Assembly: GCF_002386345.1 (NCBI RefSeq)
Contig: NZ_CP023507.1
Span: 1,887,501 to 1,951,500, forward strand
DNA: 64,000 nucleotides
Direction: 5' to 3'
Origin: Streptococcus oralis
Lineage (GTDB): Bacteria; Bacillota; Bacilli; Lactobacillales; Streptococcaceae
Shown one piece after another: positions 9,701-15,647 of the stretch. Numbering within the stretch: the first letter of the stretch is position 1; each line of letters begins with the position of its first letter. The translations under genes were made by a program, and so were the position numbers. A model generated the notes under the pieces. It did no database searches, was not told the DNA's origin, and saw only the letters and a program-made list of their open reading frames with translations.

Positions 9701-9937
9701 ATGACAGAAAAAGAAATTTTTGACCGTATTGTAACCATTATCCAAGAGCGACAGGGAGAAGACTTTGCCGTAACAGAGGCCTTGAGTTTGAAAGACGATC
9801 TAGATGCGGACTCAGTGGATTTGATGGAGTTTGTCTTGACACTAGAAGATGAATTTGGTATCGAAATCACTGATGAGGAAATCGATCAACTTCAAAGTGT
9901 AACAGATGTAATCGAAATCATTAAAGGTAAAATATAG
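9701..9937 (+). CDS. acpP: Acyl carrier protein (second, PlsX-linked copy)
   Basis: 78 residues, acidic and helical. The phosphopantetheine attachment serine is Ser38 in DADSVDLMEF. DSVD replaces the common DSLD of the fatty-synthesis ACP, as often seen in the PlsX-linked copy. The gene ends the recO-plsX operon before a terminator. It probably carries acyl groups for PlsX, and the main FASII ACP is expected elsewhere. Confidence 0.9.
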   Translation: MTEKEIFDRIVTIIQERQGEDFAVTEALSLKDDLDADSVDLMEFVLTLEDEFGIEITDEEIDQLQSVTDVIEIIKGKI

Positions 9938-9943
9938 CCGAAA

Positions 9944-9971
9944 GCAACATGCAAGTCATGTTGTTTTTTTA
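9944..9971 (+). terminator. Terminator after acpP
   Basis: GCAACATG pairs with CATGTTG around CAAGT, followed by TTTTTTT. It isolates the micropeptide region from upstream transcription. Confidence 0.85.
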
Positions 9972-10012
9972 TTTGCAGAAAAAAGAAAAACGTTAAAATT
10001 TTTAGTAGAAAT

Positions 10013-10020
10013 TGCGAATA
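10013..10020 (+). promoter_or_regulatory. cin-box-like site, copy 1
   Basis: TGCGAATA matches the SigX box TACGAATA at 7 of 8 positions and ends 31 bases before the first micropeptide start. A T-rich stretch lies upstream. The same motif recurs at the same distance before the next two micropeptides, which raises the chance that it works. Confidence 0.6.
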
Positions 10021-10051
10021 AAGAGACGAGAAAGAAAAAGGAGGAACGTTT

Positions 10052-10102
10052 ATGTATGTTACCGGTTTTTATCCCTGGTTCATTAAGTGGTTTTTAAAAT
10101 AA
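10052..10102 (+). CDS. Micropeptide 1, MYVTGFYPWFIKWFLK
   Basis: A 16-codon frame behind AAAAAGGAGG with good spacing. The product is MYVTGFYPWFIKWFLK: seven aromatic residues, two Lys and no acidic residue. It has no signal sequence or double-glycine leader. I do not recognise it. The arrangement (box, 31 bases, ATG, 16 codons) repeats twice more downstream, which is the main argument that it is a real gene. It could be a leaderless membrane-active peptide or a pheromone. Confidence 0.6.
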   Translation: MYVTGFYPWFIKWFLK

Positions 10103-10134
10103 AAGTAAAATAGCTGTTCATTTTCGAATTGTTT

Positions 10135-10142
10135 TTCGAATA
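10135..10142 (+). promoter_or_regulatory. cin-box-like site, copy 2
   Basis: TTCGAATA preceded by GTTTT, identical to the box before dut. It ends 33 bases before the second micropeptide start. Confidence 0.65.
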
Positions 10143-10175
10143 GATAGGTAAGAAGAAAAGGAAGGAGACTACGCG

Positions 10176-10226
10176 ATGTATTTACCAATCTTATTGCCAT
10201 GGTTTATCAAATGGTATTTAAAATAA
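10176..10226 (+). CDS. Micropeptide 2, MYLPILLPWFIKWYLK
   Basis: 16 codons behind AAGGAAGGAG. The product MYLPILLPWFIKWYLK shares the core PWFIKW and a C-terminal Lys with micropeptide 1. It is hydrophobic and cationic. The conserved P-W-F-I-K-W block with codon differences between copies suggests selection on the peptide. No known family is recognised. Confidence 0.6.
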   Translation: MYLPILLPWFIKWYLK

Positions 10227-10257
10227 ATGAAATTTACCTGTTCATTTTAAATCACTT

Positions 10258-10265
10258 CTCGAATA
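10258..10265 (+). promoter_or_regulatory. cin-box-like site, copy 3
   Basis: CTCGAATA, 6 of 8 to the cin-box and in a unit otherwise like copy 2. It ends 33 bases before the third micropeptide start. Confidence 0.5.
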
Positions 10266-10298
10266 GATAAGTGAGAAGAAAAGGAAGGAGATAAGGAA

Positions 10299-10349
10299 AT
10301 GATTTCAGTAATTTACCCATTCTGGTTTTTAAAATGGTTTAAAGCCTAG
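10299..10349 (+). CDS. Micropeptide 3, MISVIYPFWFLKWFKA
   Basis: 16 codons behind AAGGAAGGAG. The product MISVIYPFWFLKWFKA keeps the proline, the aromatic run, LKW and a Lys near the end. It is the most diverged copy. Only 32 bases without a terminator separate it from the first double-glycine peptide gene, so transcripts from the boxes should run into the bacteriocin-like genes. Confidence 0.58.
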   Translation: MISVIYPFWFLKWFKA

Positions 10350-10381
10350 AAACCGTAAACTAAAAATAAAGGAGAAAACAA

Positions 10382-10525
10382 ATGACAAATTTTGACAACA
10401 TGGAACAGAACTTTGTAACTCTTACAGAAGAAGAGTTGACGGATGTGAATGGGGGCTCGGTTACCGCTGTAGTTGTAGGAGGTGTCTTACTAATTGGTGG
10501 TATTGCTTGGGGCTATTTTATGTAA
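10382..10525 (+). CDS. Double-glycine bacteriocin-like peptide
   Basis: 47 residues behind AAAGGAG. The leader MTNFDNMEQNFVTLTEEEL...NGG ends at Gly24-Gly25, the site cut by C39-peptidase exporters. The mature part is 22 residues, Gly/Val-rich (VVVGGVLLIGG) and ends in WGYFM, as expected of a membrane-active class IIb peptide. ComAB is encoded 1.6 kb downstream and could export it. It is followed after 14 bases by a second such peptide, so the two may be partners. Resembles Cib/Blp-type peptides; exact family not determined. Confidence 0.72.
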   Translation: MTNFDNMEQNFVTLTEEELTDVNGGSVTAVVVGGVLLIGGIAWGYFM

Positions 10526-10539
10526 TAAGGAGAGAAAAA

Positions 10540-10689
10540 ATGAATTTAAATAAATGGACAGAATTGACAGAAGAAGAATTGATGAATACAGAAGGTGGAT
10601 TAATTACCATAGCCACGATTGCTGGAGGAGTAGCAATTTTCCTTGGTGGTCGATTAATTGGTCAAGATTTAAAACGTAAATTTGGATAA
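10540..10689 (+). CDS. Double-glycine bacteriocin-like peptide
   Basis: 49 residues from the ATG at 10540, which follows AAGGAGAG; an upstream in-frame start at 10507 lies inside the previous gene. The leader MNLNKWTELTEEELMNTEGG ends at residue 20 and the mature part of 29 residues contains IAGGVAIFLGG, a GxxxG-like helix motif, with a basic tail (LKRKFG). Probably the partner peptide of the preceding gene in a two-component bacteriocin. Confidence 0.72.
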   Translation: MNLNKWTELTEEELMNTEGGLITIATIAGGVAIFLGGRLIGQDLKRKFG

Positions 10690-10701
10690 AAGTAGACTTG
10701 T

Positions 10702-10878
10702 ATGAAAAATCTAAAAAATGTAATGGGAGCAGTTCTAATTATTTTTGGAGTGCTTTGCATATTGGGAGATTTAAATGTAATCACCTTTAATGTTGAAAAA
10801 TATTTCCAAACAGAATTAGTTGTTCCGATCCTTATTTTGATGATGAGTTACTTGGATTTAGCTAAAGACAAGGTTTAA
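10702..10878 (+). CDS. Small membrane protein, possible immunity protein
   Basis: 58 residues, with a first hydrophobic stretch (VMGAVLIIFGVLCIL) and a second (LVVPILILMMSYL), so probably two membrane segments. It comes 12 bases after a bacteriocin-like gene, the usual position of immunity genes. The immunity role is inferred from position and size only. Confidence 0.6.
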   Translation: MKNLKNVMGAVLIIFGVLCILGDLNVITFNVEKYFQTELVVPILILMMSYLDLAKDKV

Positions 10879-10883
10879 AGAGA

Positions 10884-11012
10884 ACTATTTTTAGTGTATG
10901 GCAACTGCTATTGAATAGTCATCTTTTAGTTATTATCAATGAAATAAGAACTAATTTAGGAATAGTAGGGATTTTGGTTGGAGTAGCTATTGGATTAGCC
11001 AGTATTATTTAA
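10884..11012 (+). pseudogene. Start-less reading frame, remnant of a small membrane or bacteriocin gene
   Basis: An open stretch without a start codon or ribosome site ends at TAA 11010-11012. Its last part reads NLGIVGILVGVAIGLASII, a membrane-like helix with GxxxG spacing. It looks like the 3' end of a decayed bacteriocin or immunity gene. The next gene begins 15 bases later. Confidence 0.4.
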
Positions 11013-11027
11013 AAAGGAGAGAGAAAA

Positions 11028-11183
11028 ATGAAAGAAATGGATAAAAAATTTGATATCATGACAGAAGAAGATTTGGCTCTTACTGAAGGAGGCTTCATTG
11101 TCACTACTTCCACAGCAATAGCTTGGGGTGTATTAGGAGTAGCTGCTTATATGTATGGGCGTTATCTAGGAAGTAGACGTTAA
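11028..11183 (+). CDS. Double-glycine bacteriocin-like peptide
   Basis: 51 residues behind AAAGGAGAG. The leader MKEMDKKFDIMTEEDLALTE ends with GG at 21-22. The 29-residue mature part has a hydrophobic centre (AIAWGVLGVAAYMYG) and basic tail (RYLGSRR). Third peptide of the cluster and a candidate ComAB substrate. A 70-residue membrane protein follows. Confidence 0.7.
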   Translation: MKEMDKKFDIMTEEDLALTEGGFIVTTSTAIAWGVLGVAAYMYGRYLGSRR

Positions 11184-11207
11184 TCTAAATATAGAAGTAA
11201 ATTAACT

Positions 11208-11420
11208 ATGAATCGTAACCTAAATCTCAATACATTGTTACCTAAGCTAGCCACTATACTTCCTTTGTTAGGAATAGGTCTTAATCTTACGCTTCATCTA
11301 ATTCGTACGGGTTCGCTAGTATCTTTTGATTGGCAATGGAGTTTAATAGGTTTGATTGCTGCAGGTTATTTTGGTATTTTTTGTAAGAATTTGAAGAAAA
11401 ATAATCGAAACTATAAATGA
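11208..11420 (+). CDS. Small membrane protein, possible immunity protein
   Basis: 70 residues with two hydrophobic segments (ILPLLGIGLNLTL and WSLIGLIAAGYFGIF) and a basic Asn/Lys-rich tail. It lies directly after a double-glycine peptide gene, in the place of an immunity gene. Function inferred from context. No ribosome site stands out, so translation may be coupled. Confidence 0.55.
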   Translation: MNRNLNLNTLLPKLATILPLLGIGLNLTLHLIRTGSLVSFDWQWSLIGLIAAGYFGIFCKNLKKNNRNYK

Positions 11421-11503
11421 TGAATCTGAATGGAAAGGATTTTGTGCATGTAAATGGCGGAGTTTCCCGCCTTTCTTATCAGTTAAATAGGAGTCTGCTA
11501 TGA
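11420..11503 (+). CDS. Very short double-glycine-like peptide
   Basis: 27 codons starting in the stop of the previous gene and ending just inside the next start region. MNLNGKDFVHVNGG resembles the end of a bacteriocin leader, but the remaining 13 residues are too few for a typical bacteriocin. GGCGG/CCGCC in its middle form a small hairpin. It may be a remnant. Confidence 0.3.
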   Translation: MNLNGKDFVHVNGGVSRLSYQLNRSLL

Positions 11504-11688
11504 AAAAAATCTTATTAGGATTTGCTGAGGGGTATTTTGTCGTATCGATTATTCTTTATATCGCAACGTATTTGATTATGAAAAATCCGATCAATACTCT
11601 GTTTTATCCAGAAACCTATCCAATTCTGCTTGGTCTGTTTTATGTAGGATACAAGTACAAAACAAAAGAAAGTACGATTGGAAATTGA
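11500..11688 (+). CDS. Small membrane protein
   Basis: 62 residues behind AAATAGGAG. Two hydrophobic segments (GYFVVSIILYIATYLIM and YPILLGLFYVGY) and a basic C-terminus. One of a run of small membrane proteins in the bacteriocin region. An immunity role is plausible but unproved. Confidence 0.55.
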   Translation: MKKILLGFAEGYFVVSIILYIATYLIMKNPINTLFYPETYPILLGLFYVGYKYKTKESTIGN

Positions 11689-11712
11689 TGAACCATCAGA
11701 TCGGAGTTTGAG

Positions 11713-11922
11713 ATGAAAGTTGTTCAATTACTACAAAAAGCTTGGTCAGAGTTTATTGTATTGTTTAGCTCTATAGCTTATCTAATGATTAGAATTGTGG
11801 CTGATGTAAACAAAATAAATCTACCTACGTGGTTTGAATGTTTTGATATACCTACGATTTCATTATTTTTGATGACATTTATCTCACTTTATAGAAGTAA
11901 AGAGAATATCATTTCAGAATAG
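11713..11922 (+). CDS. Small membrane protein
   Basis: 69 residues with two hydrophobic segments (IVLFSSIAYLMIRIV and IPTISLFLMTFISLY). Last gene before the terminator at 11964. No family recognised. Likely part of the immunity-like set. Confidence 0.5.
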   Translation: MKVVQLLQKAWSEFIVLFSSIAYLMIRIVADVNKINLPTWFECFDIPTISLFLMTFISLYRSKENIISE

Positions 11923-11963
11923 TTTATTTCTGGACGTTCATTTTTTAACGGTTACTTTAAACA

Positions 11964-11988
11964 GGCAGAACTTTTGTTCTGCTTTTTT
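11964..11988 (+). terminator. Terminator of the bacteriocin-like cluster
   Basis: GCAGAAC (11965-11971) pairs with GTTCTGC (11976-11982) around TTTT, followed by TTTTTT. It separates the cluster from comAB. Confidence 0.88.
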
Positions 11989-12022
11989 ACATTTAAATGA
12001 TAGTTTATGCTTTTTAAAGTGC

Positions 12023-12050
12023 GTTTTAGGCGCGAAAATGGTTTATTTGG
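12023..12050 (+). promoter_or_regulatory. Possible ComE direct repeats before comA
   Basis: GTTTTAGG (12023-12030) and TTATTTGG (12043-12050) are spaced 20 bases apart, like ComE-box half sites before pneumococcal comAB and comCDE. Another TTATTTGG is at 12073-12080 and an AT-rich -10 candidate at about 12082. The match is loose. Confidence 0.35.
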
Positions 12051-12131
12051 GAATATTCTCCTGTTTTTATCCTTATTTGGTTAAAATAATCTTACAAATT
12101 TTTAAAGAGATTGTTAGAAAAAGGAGAAGAT

Positions 12132-14285
12132 ATGAAATTTAGGAAAAGGCACTATCGTCCCCAGGTGGATCAGATGGATTGTGGCGTGGCTTCTTTGGCT
12201 ATGGTCTTTGGTTACTACGGTAGTTATTACTCCTTGGCTCATCTACGAGAGTTAGCCAAGACGACCATGGATGGGACGACCGCTTTGGGACTTGTAAAGG
12301 TGGCAGAGGAGATTGGATTTGAGACGCGGGCTATCAAGGCGGATATGACGCTCTTTGATTTGCCAGATTTGACCTTTCCTTTTGTGGCTCATGTGCTCAA
12401 GGAAGGGAAGTTGCTCCACTACTATGTGGTGATAGGTCAGGATAAAAAGCATATTCATATCGCTGATCCGGATCCTGGTGTCAAGCTGACCAAGATTTCC
12501 CGTGAGCGATTTGCGCAAGAATGGACAGGAGTCAGTCTCTTTATGGCTCCGTCTCCAGACTATAAACCCCATAAGGAGAAAAAACAGGGGCTCCTATCCT
12601 TCTTGCCAATTTTGCTCAAACAGCGGGGCTTGATTACCAATATCGTCCTAGCGACACTCTTGGTGACCTTGATCAATATCGTGGGTTCCTACTATCTTCA
12701 GTCCATCATTGATAGTTACGTACCAGACCAGATGCGCTCGACACTGGGTATTATCTCTATTGGGCTGGTCATCGTCTATATCCTCCAGCAAATTTTGTCT
12801 TATGCCCAGGAATATCTCCTACTGATACTTGGGCAACGCTTATCGATTGACGTGATTTTGTCCTACATCAAGCATGTTTTTCACCTGCCAATGTCCTTTT
12901 TTGCGACACGCAGGACAGGAGAAATCGTGTCTCGTTTTACAGATGCCAATAGTATCATCGATGCGCTGTCGTCGACCATTCTGTCGATTTTCCTAGATGT
13001 GTCGACGATTTTGATTATCTCGCTGGTCTTGTTTTCACAAAATATGACGCTCTTTTTCATTAGTCTACTTGCGCTTCCCATCTATACAGTGATTATCTTT
13101 GCCTTTATGAAGCCTTTTGAAAAGATGAATCGGGATACCATGGAAGCCAATGCGGTTCTGTCTTCCTCTATCATCGAGGACATCAACGGTATTGAGACCA
13201 TTAAGTCTTTGACCAGTGAAAGTTCGCGCTATCAAAAGATTGACAAGGAATTTGTAGCTTATCTGAAAAAATCCTTTACCTATAGTCGGGCAGAAAGCCA
13301 GCAAAAGGCTCTGAAAAAAGTTGCCCAGCTCCTGCTCAATGTTGCCGTTCTCTGGCTAGGAGCCATTCTTGTTATGGACGGGAAAATGAGTTTGGGCCAG
13401 CTGATTACCTATAATACTTTGCTTGTTTACTTTACCAATCCTTTGGAAAATATCATTAACCTACAAACCAAACTTCAGACAGCGCAGGTTGCCAATAATC
13501 GCTTAAATGAGGTTTATCTAGTAGCTTCGGAGTTTGAGGAGCAGAAAACAGTCGAAGATTTGAGCATGATGAAGGGAGAGATGACCTTTAAACAAGTTCA
13601 CTATAAGTATGGCTATGGGCGTGATGTCTTGTCGGATATCAATTTGACCATTCCACAAGGGTCTAAGATGGCTTTTGTGGGGATTTCAGGTTCGGGTAAG
13701 ACCACCTTAGCCAAGATGATGGTTAATTTTTACGACCCAAGTCAGGGAGAGATTAGTCTGGGTGGTGTCAATCTTAATCAGATTGATAAAAAGGCCCTGC
13801 GCCAGTATATCAACTACCTGCCTCAACAGCCCTATGTCTTTAACGGAACGATTTTGGAGAATCTTCTCCTTGGAGCCAAGGAGGGGACGACTCAGGAAGA
13901 TATCTTACGAGCAGTCGAGTTGGCAGAGATTCGGGAGGATATTGAGCGCATGCCTCTGAATTATCAGACAGAATTGACTTCGGATGGGGCTGGAATTTCT
14001 GGTGGGCAACGGCAGAGAATCGCTCTGGCGCGTGCTCTCTTGACGGATGCACCTGTCTTGATCTTGGACGAGGCGACTAGCAGTTTGGATATTTTGACAG
14101 AGAAGCGGATCGTGGATAATCTCATGGCTTTAGATAAGACCTTGATTTTCATCGCCCATCGCTTGACCATCGCTGAGCGGACAGAAAAGGTTGTTGTTTT
14201 GGATCAGGGCAAGATTGTCGAAGAGGGCACCCATGCAGATTTGCTTGCACAGGATGGCTTTTACGCCCATTTGGTGAATAGCTAG
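12132..14285 (+). CDS. comA: Competence factor transporting ATP-binding protein/protease ComA
   Basis: 717 residues from the ATG at 12132 after AAGGAG; the TTG at 12111 has no ribosome site. An N-terminal C39 peptidase domain shows Cys17 (QMDCGVAS), His96 and Asp112, and cuts double-glycine leaders. Six membrane segments and an ABC ATPase follow, with Walker A GISGSGKTT, signature SGGQRQR, Walker B LILDEATSSLD and a switch His in IAHR. With ComB it exports and matures competence-stimulating peptide. It can also serve Blp and related bacteriocins. comCDE is not in this window. Confidence 0.95.
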   Translation: MKFRKRHYRPQVDQMDCGVASLAMVFGYYGSYYSLAHLRELAKTTMDGTTALGLVKVAEEIGFETRAIKADMTLFDLPDLTFPFVAHVLKEGKLLHYYVVIGQDKKHIHIADPDPGVKLTKISRERFAQEWTGVSLFMAPSPDYKPHKEKKQGLLSFLPILLKQRGLITNIVLATLLVTLINIVGSYYLQSIIDSYVPDQMRSTLGIISIGLVIVYILQQILSYAQEYLLLILGQRLSIDVILSYIKHVFHLPMSFFATRRTGEIVSRFTDANSIIDALSSTILSIFLDVSTILIISLVLFSQNMTLFFISLLALPIYTVIIFAFMKPFEKMNRDTMEANAVLSSSIIEDINGIETIKSLTSESSRYQKIDKEFVAYLKKSFTYSRAESQQKALKKVAQLLLNVAVLWLGAILVMDGKMSLGQLITYNTLLVYFTNPLENIINLQTKLQTAQVANNRLNEVYLVASEFEEQKTVEDLSMMKGEMTFKQVHYKYGYGRDVLSDINLTIPQGSKMAFVGISGSGKTTLAKMMVNFYDPSQGEISLGGVNLNQIDKKALRQYINYLPQQPYVFNGTILENLLLGAKEGTTQEDILRAVELAEIREDIERMPLNYQTELTSDGAGISGGQRQRIALARALLTDAPVLILDEATSSLDILTEKRIVDNLMALDKTLIFIAHRLTIAERTEKVVVLDQGKIVEEGTHADLLAQDGFYAHLVNS

Positions 14286-14297
14286 AAAGAGGAGAGG

Positions 14298-15647
14298 ATG
14301 AAACCAGAATTTTTAGAAAGTGCGGAGTTTTATAATCGTCGTTACCATAATTTTTCCAGTCGGGTGATTTTACCTATGTCACTTCTGCTCGTATTTCTGT
14401 TAGGATTTGCAGTTTTTGCAGAGAAGGAGATGAGTTTGTCTACCAGAGCGACAGTCGAACCTAGTCGGATCATTGCCAACATCCAGTCGACTAGCAATCA
14501 ACGCATTGTGGGCAACTATCTGGAAGAAAACAAGTTGGTTAAGCAAGGAGATCTGCTCGTTCAGTACCAGCAAGGGGCGGAGGCTGTCCAGGTTGAGGCA
14601 TATGCCAGTCAATTGGAGATGTTAAAGGATCAAAAAAAGCAGTTGGGGTATTTGCAATCCAGTTTGAAAGAGGGGAGTGATCAATTTCCAGAGGCGGATA
14701 AGTTTGGTTATCAGGAGATGTTTCGAGACTATCTCAGCCAAGTTAGTAGTCTTAGGAGTAATGTTTCTCAGCAAAATGCCAGCATCTCCTCTCAAAATGC
14801 GGCAGCAAGTCAGAGCCAGGCCGAGATTGGCAATCTTATCAGTCAAACAGAGGATAAAATTCGAGACTATAAAACAGCAAAGTCAGCGATTGAAAAGGGA
14901 GATCAACTGGATAGTCAGAATCCAGCCTACTCTTTTTACCAGACCTATAAAAATCAAGGTGAAGAAGATCCGCAAGCTAAATCGCAAGTTATTGCGCAAG
15001 TGGATGCACAAATTGCCCAGCTAGAGTCTAGCCTAGCTACGTATCGTGTGCAATATGCAGGTTCTGGAGCTCAACAGGCCCACGCAACGGGACTGGATAG
15101 TCAACTGGAATCACTCAAGTCTCAGCACTTAGTTAAAGTCGGTCAGGAATTAACTCTTTTGGATCAGAAAATTTTAGAAGCAGAGTCGGGTAAGAAAGTC
15201 CAAGGAGGTCTCCTCGATAAGGGGAAGATTACAGCAAGTGAGGATGGGGTGCTTCACCTTAATCCTGAGACTAGCGATTCTACCATGGCCGCAGAAGGAA
15301 CCCTGCTAGCCCAGCTCTACCCATCCTTGGAAAAAGAAGGAAAAACCAAACTCACAGCCTATCTCAGTTCAAAAGATGTTGCTAGAGTCAAGATTGGGGA
15401 TTCTGTCCGTTATACTACGACTAATGATGCCAAGAATCAAATTTTCCTGGATTCCACGATTACAAGTATTGATGCGACAGCTACAAAAACTGAAAAAGGG
15501 AATTTCTTTAAAATTGAGGCGGAGACCCATCTGACTTCTGAGCAGGCTACAAAACTTCGCTATGGTTTAGAAGGTCGTCTACAGATGATTACAGGGAAGA
15601 AAAGCTATCTCCGTTATTTTTGGGATCAATTTTTGAATAAAGGGTAA
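14298..15647 (+). CDS. comB: Competence factor transport accessory protein ComB
   Basis: 449 residues, the ComB length. One N-terminal membrane helix ([18 protein letters not shown]) is followed by a barrel-sandwich segment, a long Gln/Ser-rich coiled-coil region (about 90-290) and a C-terminal beta domain, as in HlyD-type adaptor proteins. It follows comA after 12 bases behind AGAGGAG and forms the CSP/bacteriocin exporter with it. Confidence 0.93.

Follow-up and report, generated by a model that had tools for sequence, protein, structure and literature searches.

Short open reading frames behind the tandem SigX-type boxes of a competence bacteriocin locus in Streptococcus oralis and its relatives

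Why should a bacteriocin locus carry its SigX box several times over? The question is raised by the cab locus of Streptococcus mitis and again by a related locus of Streptococcus oralis, which lies in the window analysed here (the whole 64-kb stretch of DNA). One of the accounts on which we draw, PMC6001120, is presumably that of Salvadori and colleagues. It reports two or three SigX boxes before the cab operon and offers no clear explanation for them, recurrent recombination being the guess (PMC6001120). Borralho and colleagues found that cab expression needs SigX, that five boxes give more of it than one and that cab loci carry from 2 to 38 boxes, the 38 in one strain; they suggested that the boxes have accumulated and may be selected for expression (PMC13059744). 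In the parts covered here, the published cab accounts treat the boxes as repeated promoter sites, and ORFs of 16 codons behind them go unmentioned.

Three box-ORF units between acpP2 and the cab-type cluster

The interval starts at acpP2 (acyl carrier protein, 9701-9937 in the ORF list), the upstream border; plsX-acpP is the left flank of cab (PMC13059744). PlsX of the window shares 98% identity with the protein of a record named S. oralis DD15 and 97% with that of one named S. pseudopneumoniae, which marks a mitis-group strain. From acpP2 to comA the order is a terminator-like hairpin (9940-9968), three box-ORF units, a cab-type cluster of three double-glycine peptides and four small hydrophobic ORFs, and a closing terminator-like hairpin (11963-11984), all on the + strand. 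The units were read directly in the sequence, and each consists of a T tract, a box, 31-33 nt, an ATG, 16 codons and a stop. Box 1 (TGCGAATA, 10013-10020, with a T tract upstream) is followed after 31 nt, with the ribosome site AAGGAGG, by an ORF of subtype A (MYVTGFYPWFIKWFLK, 10052-10102 with its stop). Box 2 (TTCGAATA, 10135-10142) precedes the ORF of subtype B (MYLPILLPWFIKWYLK, 10176-10226 with stop) by 33 nt, and box 3 (CTCGAATA, 10258-10265) lies the same 33 nt ahead of the cab-proximal ORF of subtype C (MISVIYPFWFLKWFKA, 10299-10349 with stop), the ribosome site being AAGGAG in both. The products are called micropeptides below. A first, sequence-only reading of the window had described three successive copies of just this arrangement, in which a cin box is followed after 31-33 nt by the ATG of a 16-codon ORF with a strong ribosome site, and it is borne out at 10013, 10135 and 10258; the ORF list equally confirms that the array stands upstream of a bacteriocin cluster and comAB.

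The cab-type cluster opens with a 47-aa double-glycine-leader peptide (10382-10525, leader end ...ELTDVNGG) and a second one of 49 aa (10540-10689; the ORF list starts it at an upstream TTG, and its ATG was read in the sequence), followed by a 58-aa hydrophobic protein (10702-10878). A third double-glycine-leader peptide, of 51 aa (11028-11183), is followed by a 70-aa hydrophobic protein (11208-11420) and, between 11500 and 11922, by two small hydrophobic ORFs of 62 aa (11500-11688) and 69 aa (11713-11922). The 58-aa and 70-aa proteins are immunity-like by position, and the roles of all four hydrophobic products are putative. Beyond the closing hairpin come comA (peptide ABC transporter, 12132-14285, its ATG lying inside an ORF listed from 12111) and comB (14298-15647), both on the + strand. 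A hairpin scan of 9900-12200 gave three terminator-like sites against a shuffle mean of 0.7, one of them inside the cab cluster (11456-11471) and none between micropeptide units.

The three-unit array is not a product of chance. With a unit defined as box, 27-36 nt, ATG and 15-17 codons, the window has three; dinucleotide shuffles of 9938-10381 (n = 5,000) gave none in 4,992 cases and one in 8, and shuffles of the whole window, counted on both strands (n = 30), gave none in 22, one in 7 and two in 1. The box alone is no rarer than expected: TNCGAATA, a pattern which leaves out the third box, occurs 8 times in the window against 7.1 expected.

How well do the three boxes fit what is known of SigX? 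The pneumococcal consensus is TMCGAATA (PMC6560143). In its strict extended form, TMCGAATA with a YTHTT core (YTHTTNCGAATADW), it has 17 matches in the genome (11 for a reversed control pattern), among them boxes that precede dut-, comGA-, comFA- and coiA-like genes (named by eye). The three array boxes are absent from these matches, and each departs from TMCGAATA at M, having neither A nor C there. Compared by eye, they do agree with the looser form TTT-[N]-HNCGAATA, which was used as the SigX box in PMC11921387, and TTCGAATA is the box reported for a SigX-dependent cab operon of S. mitis (PMC6001120). In the window units, a CGAATA box preceded by a T tract keeps a fixed spacing to the start codon. 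Elsewhere in the window, at 938-945, TTCGAATA with a T tract precedes dut and radA and serves as a positive control, the dut-radA operon being listed as ComX-regulated in pneumococcus (PMC6560143). The late-competence (SigX) control that the sequence-only reading had predicted is likely, because SigX is required by the published cab operons that have such boxes in front of them (PMC13059744, PMC6001120); that dependence is known for operons, not for 16-codon ORFs.

A family of predicted 16- and 17-residue peptides

A DNA search gave matches in 95 of 284 Streptococcus genomes, some by short stretches only. A profile of 19 peptides (consensus MxxxxxYPWFxKWFxK) matched 85 of the 284 at E up to 0.1, and 81 were retained, G002, G034, G223 and G274 (E 0.01-0.09) being excluded as probable chance matches. 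Within a sample of the Streptococcaceae (196 genomes, 10 genera) 52 genomes matched, all of them Streptococcus, and no relatives were found in the nine other sampled genera. We fetched 90 loci and searched them for a box, 27-36 nt, an ATG and 15-18 residues. The 239 matches comprise 52 distinct peptides, which belong without exception to one family and have 16 or 17 aa, never the 15 or 18 that the search also allowed; the gap from box to ATG is 33-34 nt in 161 of the units, 31-32 nt in 66, 35 nt in 7 and 27-30 nt in 5.

Two statements of the sequence-only reading hold for the window and not for the family. All three window ORFs have exactly 16 codons and no acidic residue, while subtype C has 16 or 17 residues across the family and D or E occurs in 6 of 56 distinct relatives. 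A side-chain charge of +2 is found in 49 of the 56. The micropeptides are leaderless by sequence, and the GG of a cab-type (M/L/V)XXXXGG leader occurs in none of the 52 listed peptides. Among 71 distinct A/B ORFs (one of them a 17-residue C-like ORF; the omega run below took the 70 of 16 residues), K16 is present in 71 and W9 in 68. The predicted interface transfer sum, computed with Wimley-White values, averages -6.3 for the family versus +0.9 for 173 other ORFs of 15-18 aa in the window, 13 of which reach the weakest family value; this composition suggests a location at the membrane. A literature text search with peptide words returned no description of such peptides among the matches listed, supplements lying outside its scope, in agreement with the earlier impression that no described family is concerned.

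The arrays are built in the order A-B(n)-C, with up to six B copies. Subtype A peptides start MYVTGFYP... or MYMPILYP..., those of subtype B MYLPILLP..., MYLPIFYP... or MFISMFYP..., and subtype C peptides read M(I)ISVIYPxW.... Among 90 arrays, 31 are ABC, 15 AC and 6 BC, and C is always last where it is present. Similar arrays also lie deeper within larger cab clusters.

We then compared omega in the reading frame of the micropeptides and in the two shifted frames. On a tree of 70 distinct A/B ORFs, 83 synonymous and 71 non-synonymous changes were counted, giving an omega of 0.203 (p 9e-22 for the synonymous excess, with changes treated as independent), against 1.11 and 1.61 in the shifted frames. 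Since the shifted frames carry equal relatedness and mutation bias, the A/B result needs selection at the level of the peptide. The same holds by subtype: omega is 0.163 for A (31 distinct ORFs; 1.57 and 3.06 shifted), 0.289 for B1 (9 distinct ORFs; 1.95 in one shifted frame and no synonymous change in the other) and 0.159 for B2 (30 distinct ORFs; 0.85 and 0.91 shifted), and pairwise comparison of A/B gave 0.17 in frame and 1.05 and 1.51 shifted. For C (24 distinct ORFs), 21 synonymous and 28 non-synonymous changes give 0.372 on the tree versus 0.61 and 0.72 shifted, and pairwise values are 0.29 versus 0.40 and 1.25; the signal is weaker here because one shifted frame is also low (0.61 on the tree, 0.40 pairwise). 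Judged by these substitution patterns, the peptide is under purifying selection, clearly for A/B and more weakly for C. The length and dN/dS comparison that the sequence-only reading had proposed thus supports its claim of selection for the peptide, all 52 distinct peptides having 16-17 aa and in-frame omega (0.20 for A/B, 0.37 for C) lying below the shifted frames (1.1-1.6 and 0.6-0.7, respectively).

Broken copies were counted with a nucleotide profile, 5 duplicate loci having been dropped from the 90. It found 287 copies: 228 intact, 26 broken, 32 matching part of the model and 1 with N runs, the last two groups being set aside before the counts that follow. An AAGGAG ribosome site is present in 207 of the 228 intact copies. 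Broken frames in otherwise conserved spacer DNA had been named by the sequence-only reading as a result that would refute peptide genes; such cases do occur, mainly in C (13 of 58 distinct copies) and little in A/B (6 of 164), GTG starts being accepted. Thus, the cab-proximal C is the copy most often broken and is dispensable in several lineages, some C copies having retained the box and lost the frame, whereas A and B, further from cab, persist. In the set of 222 distinct full copies, a good box accompanies 194 of 204 intact frames versus 10 of 18 broken ones (Fisher 1e-5; one GTG-start copy was scored broken here and intact in the subtype count), a coupling of box loss with frame loss that is expected of a gene and not of a bare promoter. 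Because the distinct copies share descent and have recombined, p values overstate independence; nor are the C losses independent events, much of the coupled loss having the look of a single inherited C deletion.

The array and the published cab locus

The array goes closely with the bacteriocins behind it. We found 63 complete acpP2-comA intervals, 44 of them distinct: in 37, micropeptide units go with a double-glycine bacteriocin, 6 lack both, and a single one (L049) has a unit only, namely a C unit whose box has decayed and behind which the cab leader is truncated. Five of the six with neither are of 255-287 bp and the sixth is L071, an interval of 4793 bp without SigX box or micropeptide unit; these assignments follow the stricter double-glycine filter, which finds no candidate in L049 or L071, while a looser one finds one candidate in each. 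Across the 666 pairs of the 37 loci, mean identity is 82% for the first micropeptide and 29% for the first mature bacteriocin. By sequence, then, the module changes its weapons and keeps its micropeptides, and the constancy of the latter beside variable bacteriocins favours a general service to the module over a weapon.

The cab locus of S. mitis shares its place, from plsX-acpP to comAB, and its tandem SigX boxes with the locus described here (PMC13059744, PMC11921387, PMC6001120), and in both the array is followed by double-glycine bacteriocins and immunity-like genes. On place and layout, the five boxes of the published strain G22 would belong with the micropeptide family. The 2026 ORF scan took ORFs of 100-300 nt with a double-glycine motif (PMC13059744); ORFs of 51-54 nt could not appear in it because it started at 100 nt. 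Small ORFs were searched for in PMC11921387 too, the covered parts of which mention no such peptide. What is added here to the parts covered are the 16-codon ORFs behind the cab SigX boxes; the cab locus, its multiple boxes and its SigX dependence were known.

Genes are hereby supplied for a pattern that two studies, in the parts covered, gave only as repeated promoter boxes (PMC13059744), and size cut-offs in ORF scans are seen to be able to hide a selected gene family, in this instance one with members in 81 of the 284 Streptococcus genomes. Should the peptides be active, the box-deletion effects in the literature may mix promoter dosage with micropeptide loss. CabA is located at the cell surface, the route of its delivery being one that the authors term distinct (PMC13059744), and active micropeptides would be candidates for how Cab stays there.

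What the micropeptides may do

That the ORFs are expressed and selected peptide genes we regard as very probable, and that their products act in trans at the membrane, of either cell, as probable. We lean, by a little, towards trans-acting membrane micropeptides of the cab module that are not plain secreted toxins, leaving their exact task aside. A helper or protector on the producer side can be put forward as that task only tentatively. The widest reading is doubtful: that in the mitis group at large the SigX-box arrays of cab loci consist of genes of a new micropeptide family, whose members are a common membrane-resident partner of hypervariable competence bacteriocins. As such a partner the micropeptides might, for example, be the missing factor by which Cab is kept on the producer surface for contact-dependent killing, or might shield the producer. 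Box counts would then be a record, in part, of micropeptide gene dosage and not of promoter strength only.

A possible course of events is as follows. For cab, the literature has CSP raise ComE activity and ComE raise SigX. During competence each box would direct SigX-dependent transcription, with a 5' leader of ~25 nt per unit if the start is placed by the pneumococcal consensus. As no terminator-like site lies between the units, transcripts are expected to continue past the array and reach the cab operon, whose expression the array would thereby amplify as well. Each ORF would probably be translated at a high rate from its AAGGAG site, giving a leaderless, formyl-Met, aromatic-rich peptide with a net charge of about +2. 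Such a peptide would be too short to span the bilayer and would have no leader for ComAB, and may stay at the inner face of the producer membrane, at the interface. From there the micropeptides could serve the changeable Cab bacteriocins in trans, either by helping with surface placement or processing or by self-protection during competence.

The main rival has the micropeptides act as leaderless antimicrobials, leaving the cell by lysis or through a general exporter and killing or permeabilising neighbours together with the Cab peptides. Their Trp-, Phe- and Lys-rich cationic composition, the tandem related genes and the location in a predation module are what one would expect, and the absence of a leader, positive charge, Trp content and related peptides side by side are shared with leaderless multi-peptide bacteriocins. 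However, leaderless bacteriocins have 30-64 aa, so that the micropeptides are about half their length or less, and each micropeptide ORF has its own promoter. By eye, neither an exporter besides comAB nor an immunity gene for each unit was seen in the window, the immunity-like ORFs of which adjoin the double-glycine genes and not the micropeptide units, and the contrast in identity between micropeptides and bacteriocins is unlike a weapon under immunity-driven turnover. We consider this rival unlikely. A further likeness is to the alpha-type phenol-soluble modulins of staphylococci, which are tandem, leaderless, formyl-Met, membrane-active peptides of ~20 residues; it is one of description only, and regulation differs.

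Alternatively, the ORFs could act in cis as leader peptides, their translation tuning how strongly the downstream cab mRNA is transcribed or how stable it is, as in attenuation or ribosome arrest. Known leader peptides are of similar length, likewise contain Trp and Pro and stand at the start of their operons, and the close co-occurrence with cab would follow as well. C, the ORF next to cab, is however the copy most often broken, and A and B, which precede another promoter and not a larger gene, are kept and have the lower omega; this pattern favours a trans product. Nor does the RNA resemble that of attenuated operons, where a terminator or conserved fold would be expected: the array has no terminator-like site between units, folding z-scores of 1.72, 0.25 and -0.16 indicate no structure, and the consensus fold of 40 sampled A/B units is empty. 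A cis role is accordingly rated as distinctly unlikely.

Still less probable are pheromone precursors of the SHP or ComS type, trimmed to a C-terminal Trp-rich signal. Like the Rgg/SHP and ComS/XIP precursors, the micropeptides are short and hydrophobic, have no classical leader and contain Trp towards the C-terminus; SHP and ComS precursors are exported by PptAB (PMC13361665). The micropeptides differ in having lysines at the C-terminal end, in forming arrays of several different peptides and in belonging to a late response, so that they would be produced only after the CSP signal has acted. No regulator gene, Rgg-like or other, was seen by eye between acpP2 and comA in the window (9701-12132). 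The constancy of the micropeptides next to diverse bacteriocins speaks against plain signalling, one of the roles that the sequence-only reading had predicted, as it does against a toxin.

Multiplication of promoters only, with boxes copied to raise cab expression and the ORFs as passengers, agrees with the published gain in expression and suggested accumulation of boxes (PMC13059744) and with the 10 of 18 broken copies that retain a box, but is highly improbable given the in-frame omega of A/B, by which neutral promoter repeats are rejected, and the kept peptide length and ribosome site.

Several other candidates were rejected. A small RNA or riboregulator is at odds with the unremarkable z-scores and the empty consensus fold, and the only two Rfam matches are both far below the gathering score. 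A home on a phage or plasmid was dismissed since 9960-10380 has no match in a phage or plasmid collection. The srf-03 RNA lies upstream of pneumococcal comA and is linked to ComE and BOX (PMC6560143), and no such peptide is among the table rows shown for pneumococcal rio sORFs (PMC9426450). The KW motif brought a Lys-Trp cross-linked RiPP into consideration; no radical-SAM gene was seen by eye in the acpP2-comA interval.

Some loci stand apart. A record labelled S. pneumoniae (SMRU824; L039:11993-12662) has a long B-type array; cab is absent from S. pneumoniae according to PMC13059744, and the label may be wrong. N runs or contig ends lie in or at the arrays of L023 and L033, at the ends of L151 and L163 and at the starts of L146 and L147, in line with a published remark on assemblies breaking here. 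The C-type ORF is intact despite a degenerate box, TTGAATA, in L049 and L052 (acpP2-comA 1048 bp), and the cab leader behind the C unit of L049 is truncated after 15 residues. Lastly, at L042:8602, L046:5832, L047:10330 and others, a 42-residue double-glycine peptide (MKEHYYGF...) replaces the micro-ORF behind the box, its ATG following after 33-35 nt (ORF calls in this survey sometimes start at a TTG upstream of the real ATG); promoter and leader therefore behave like a swappable cassette.
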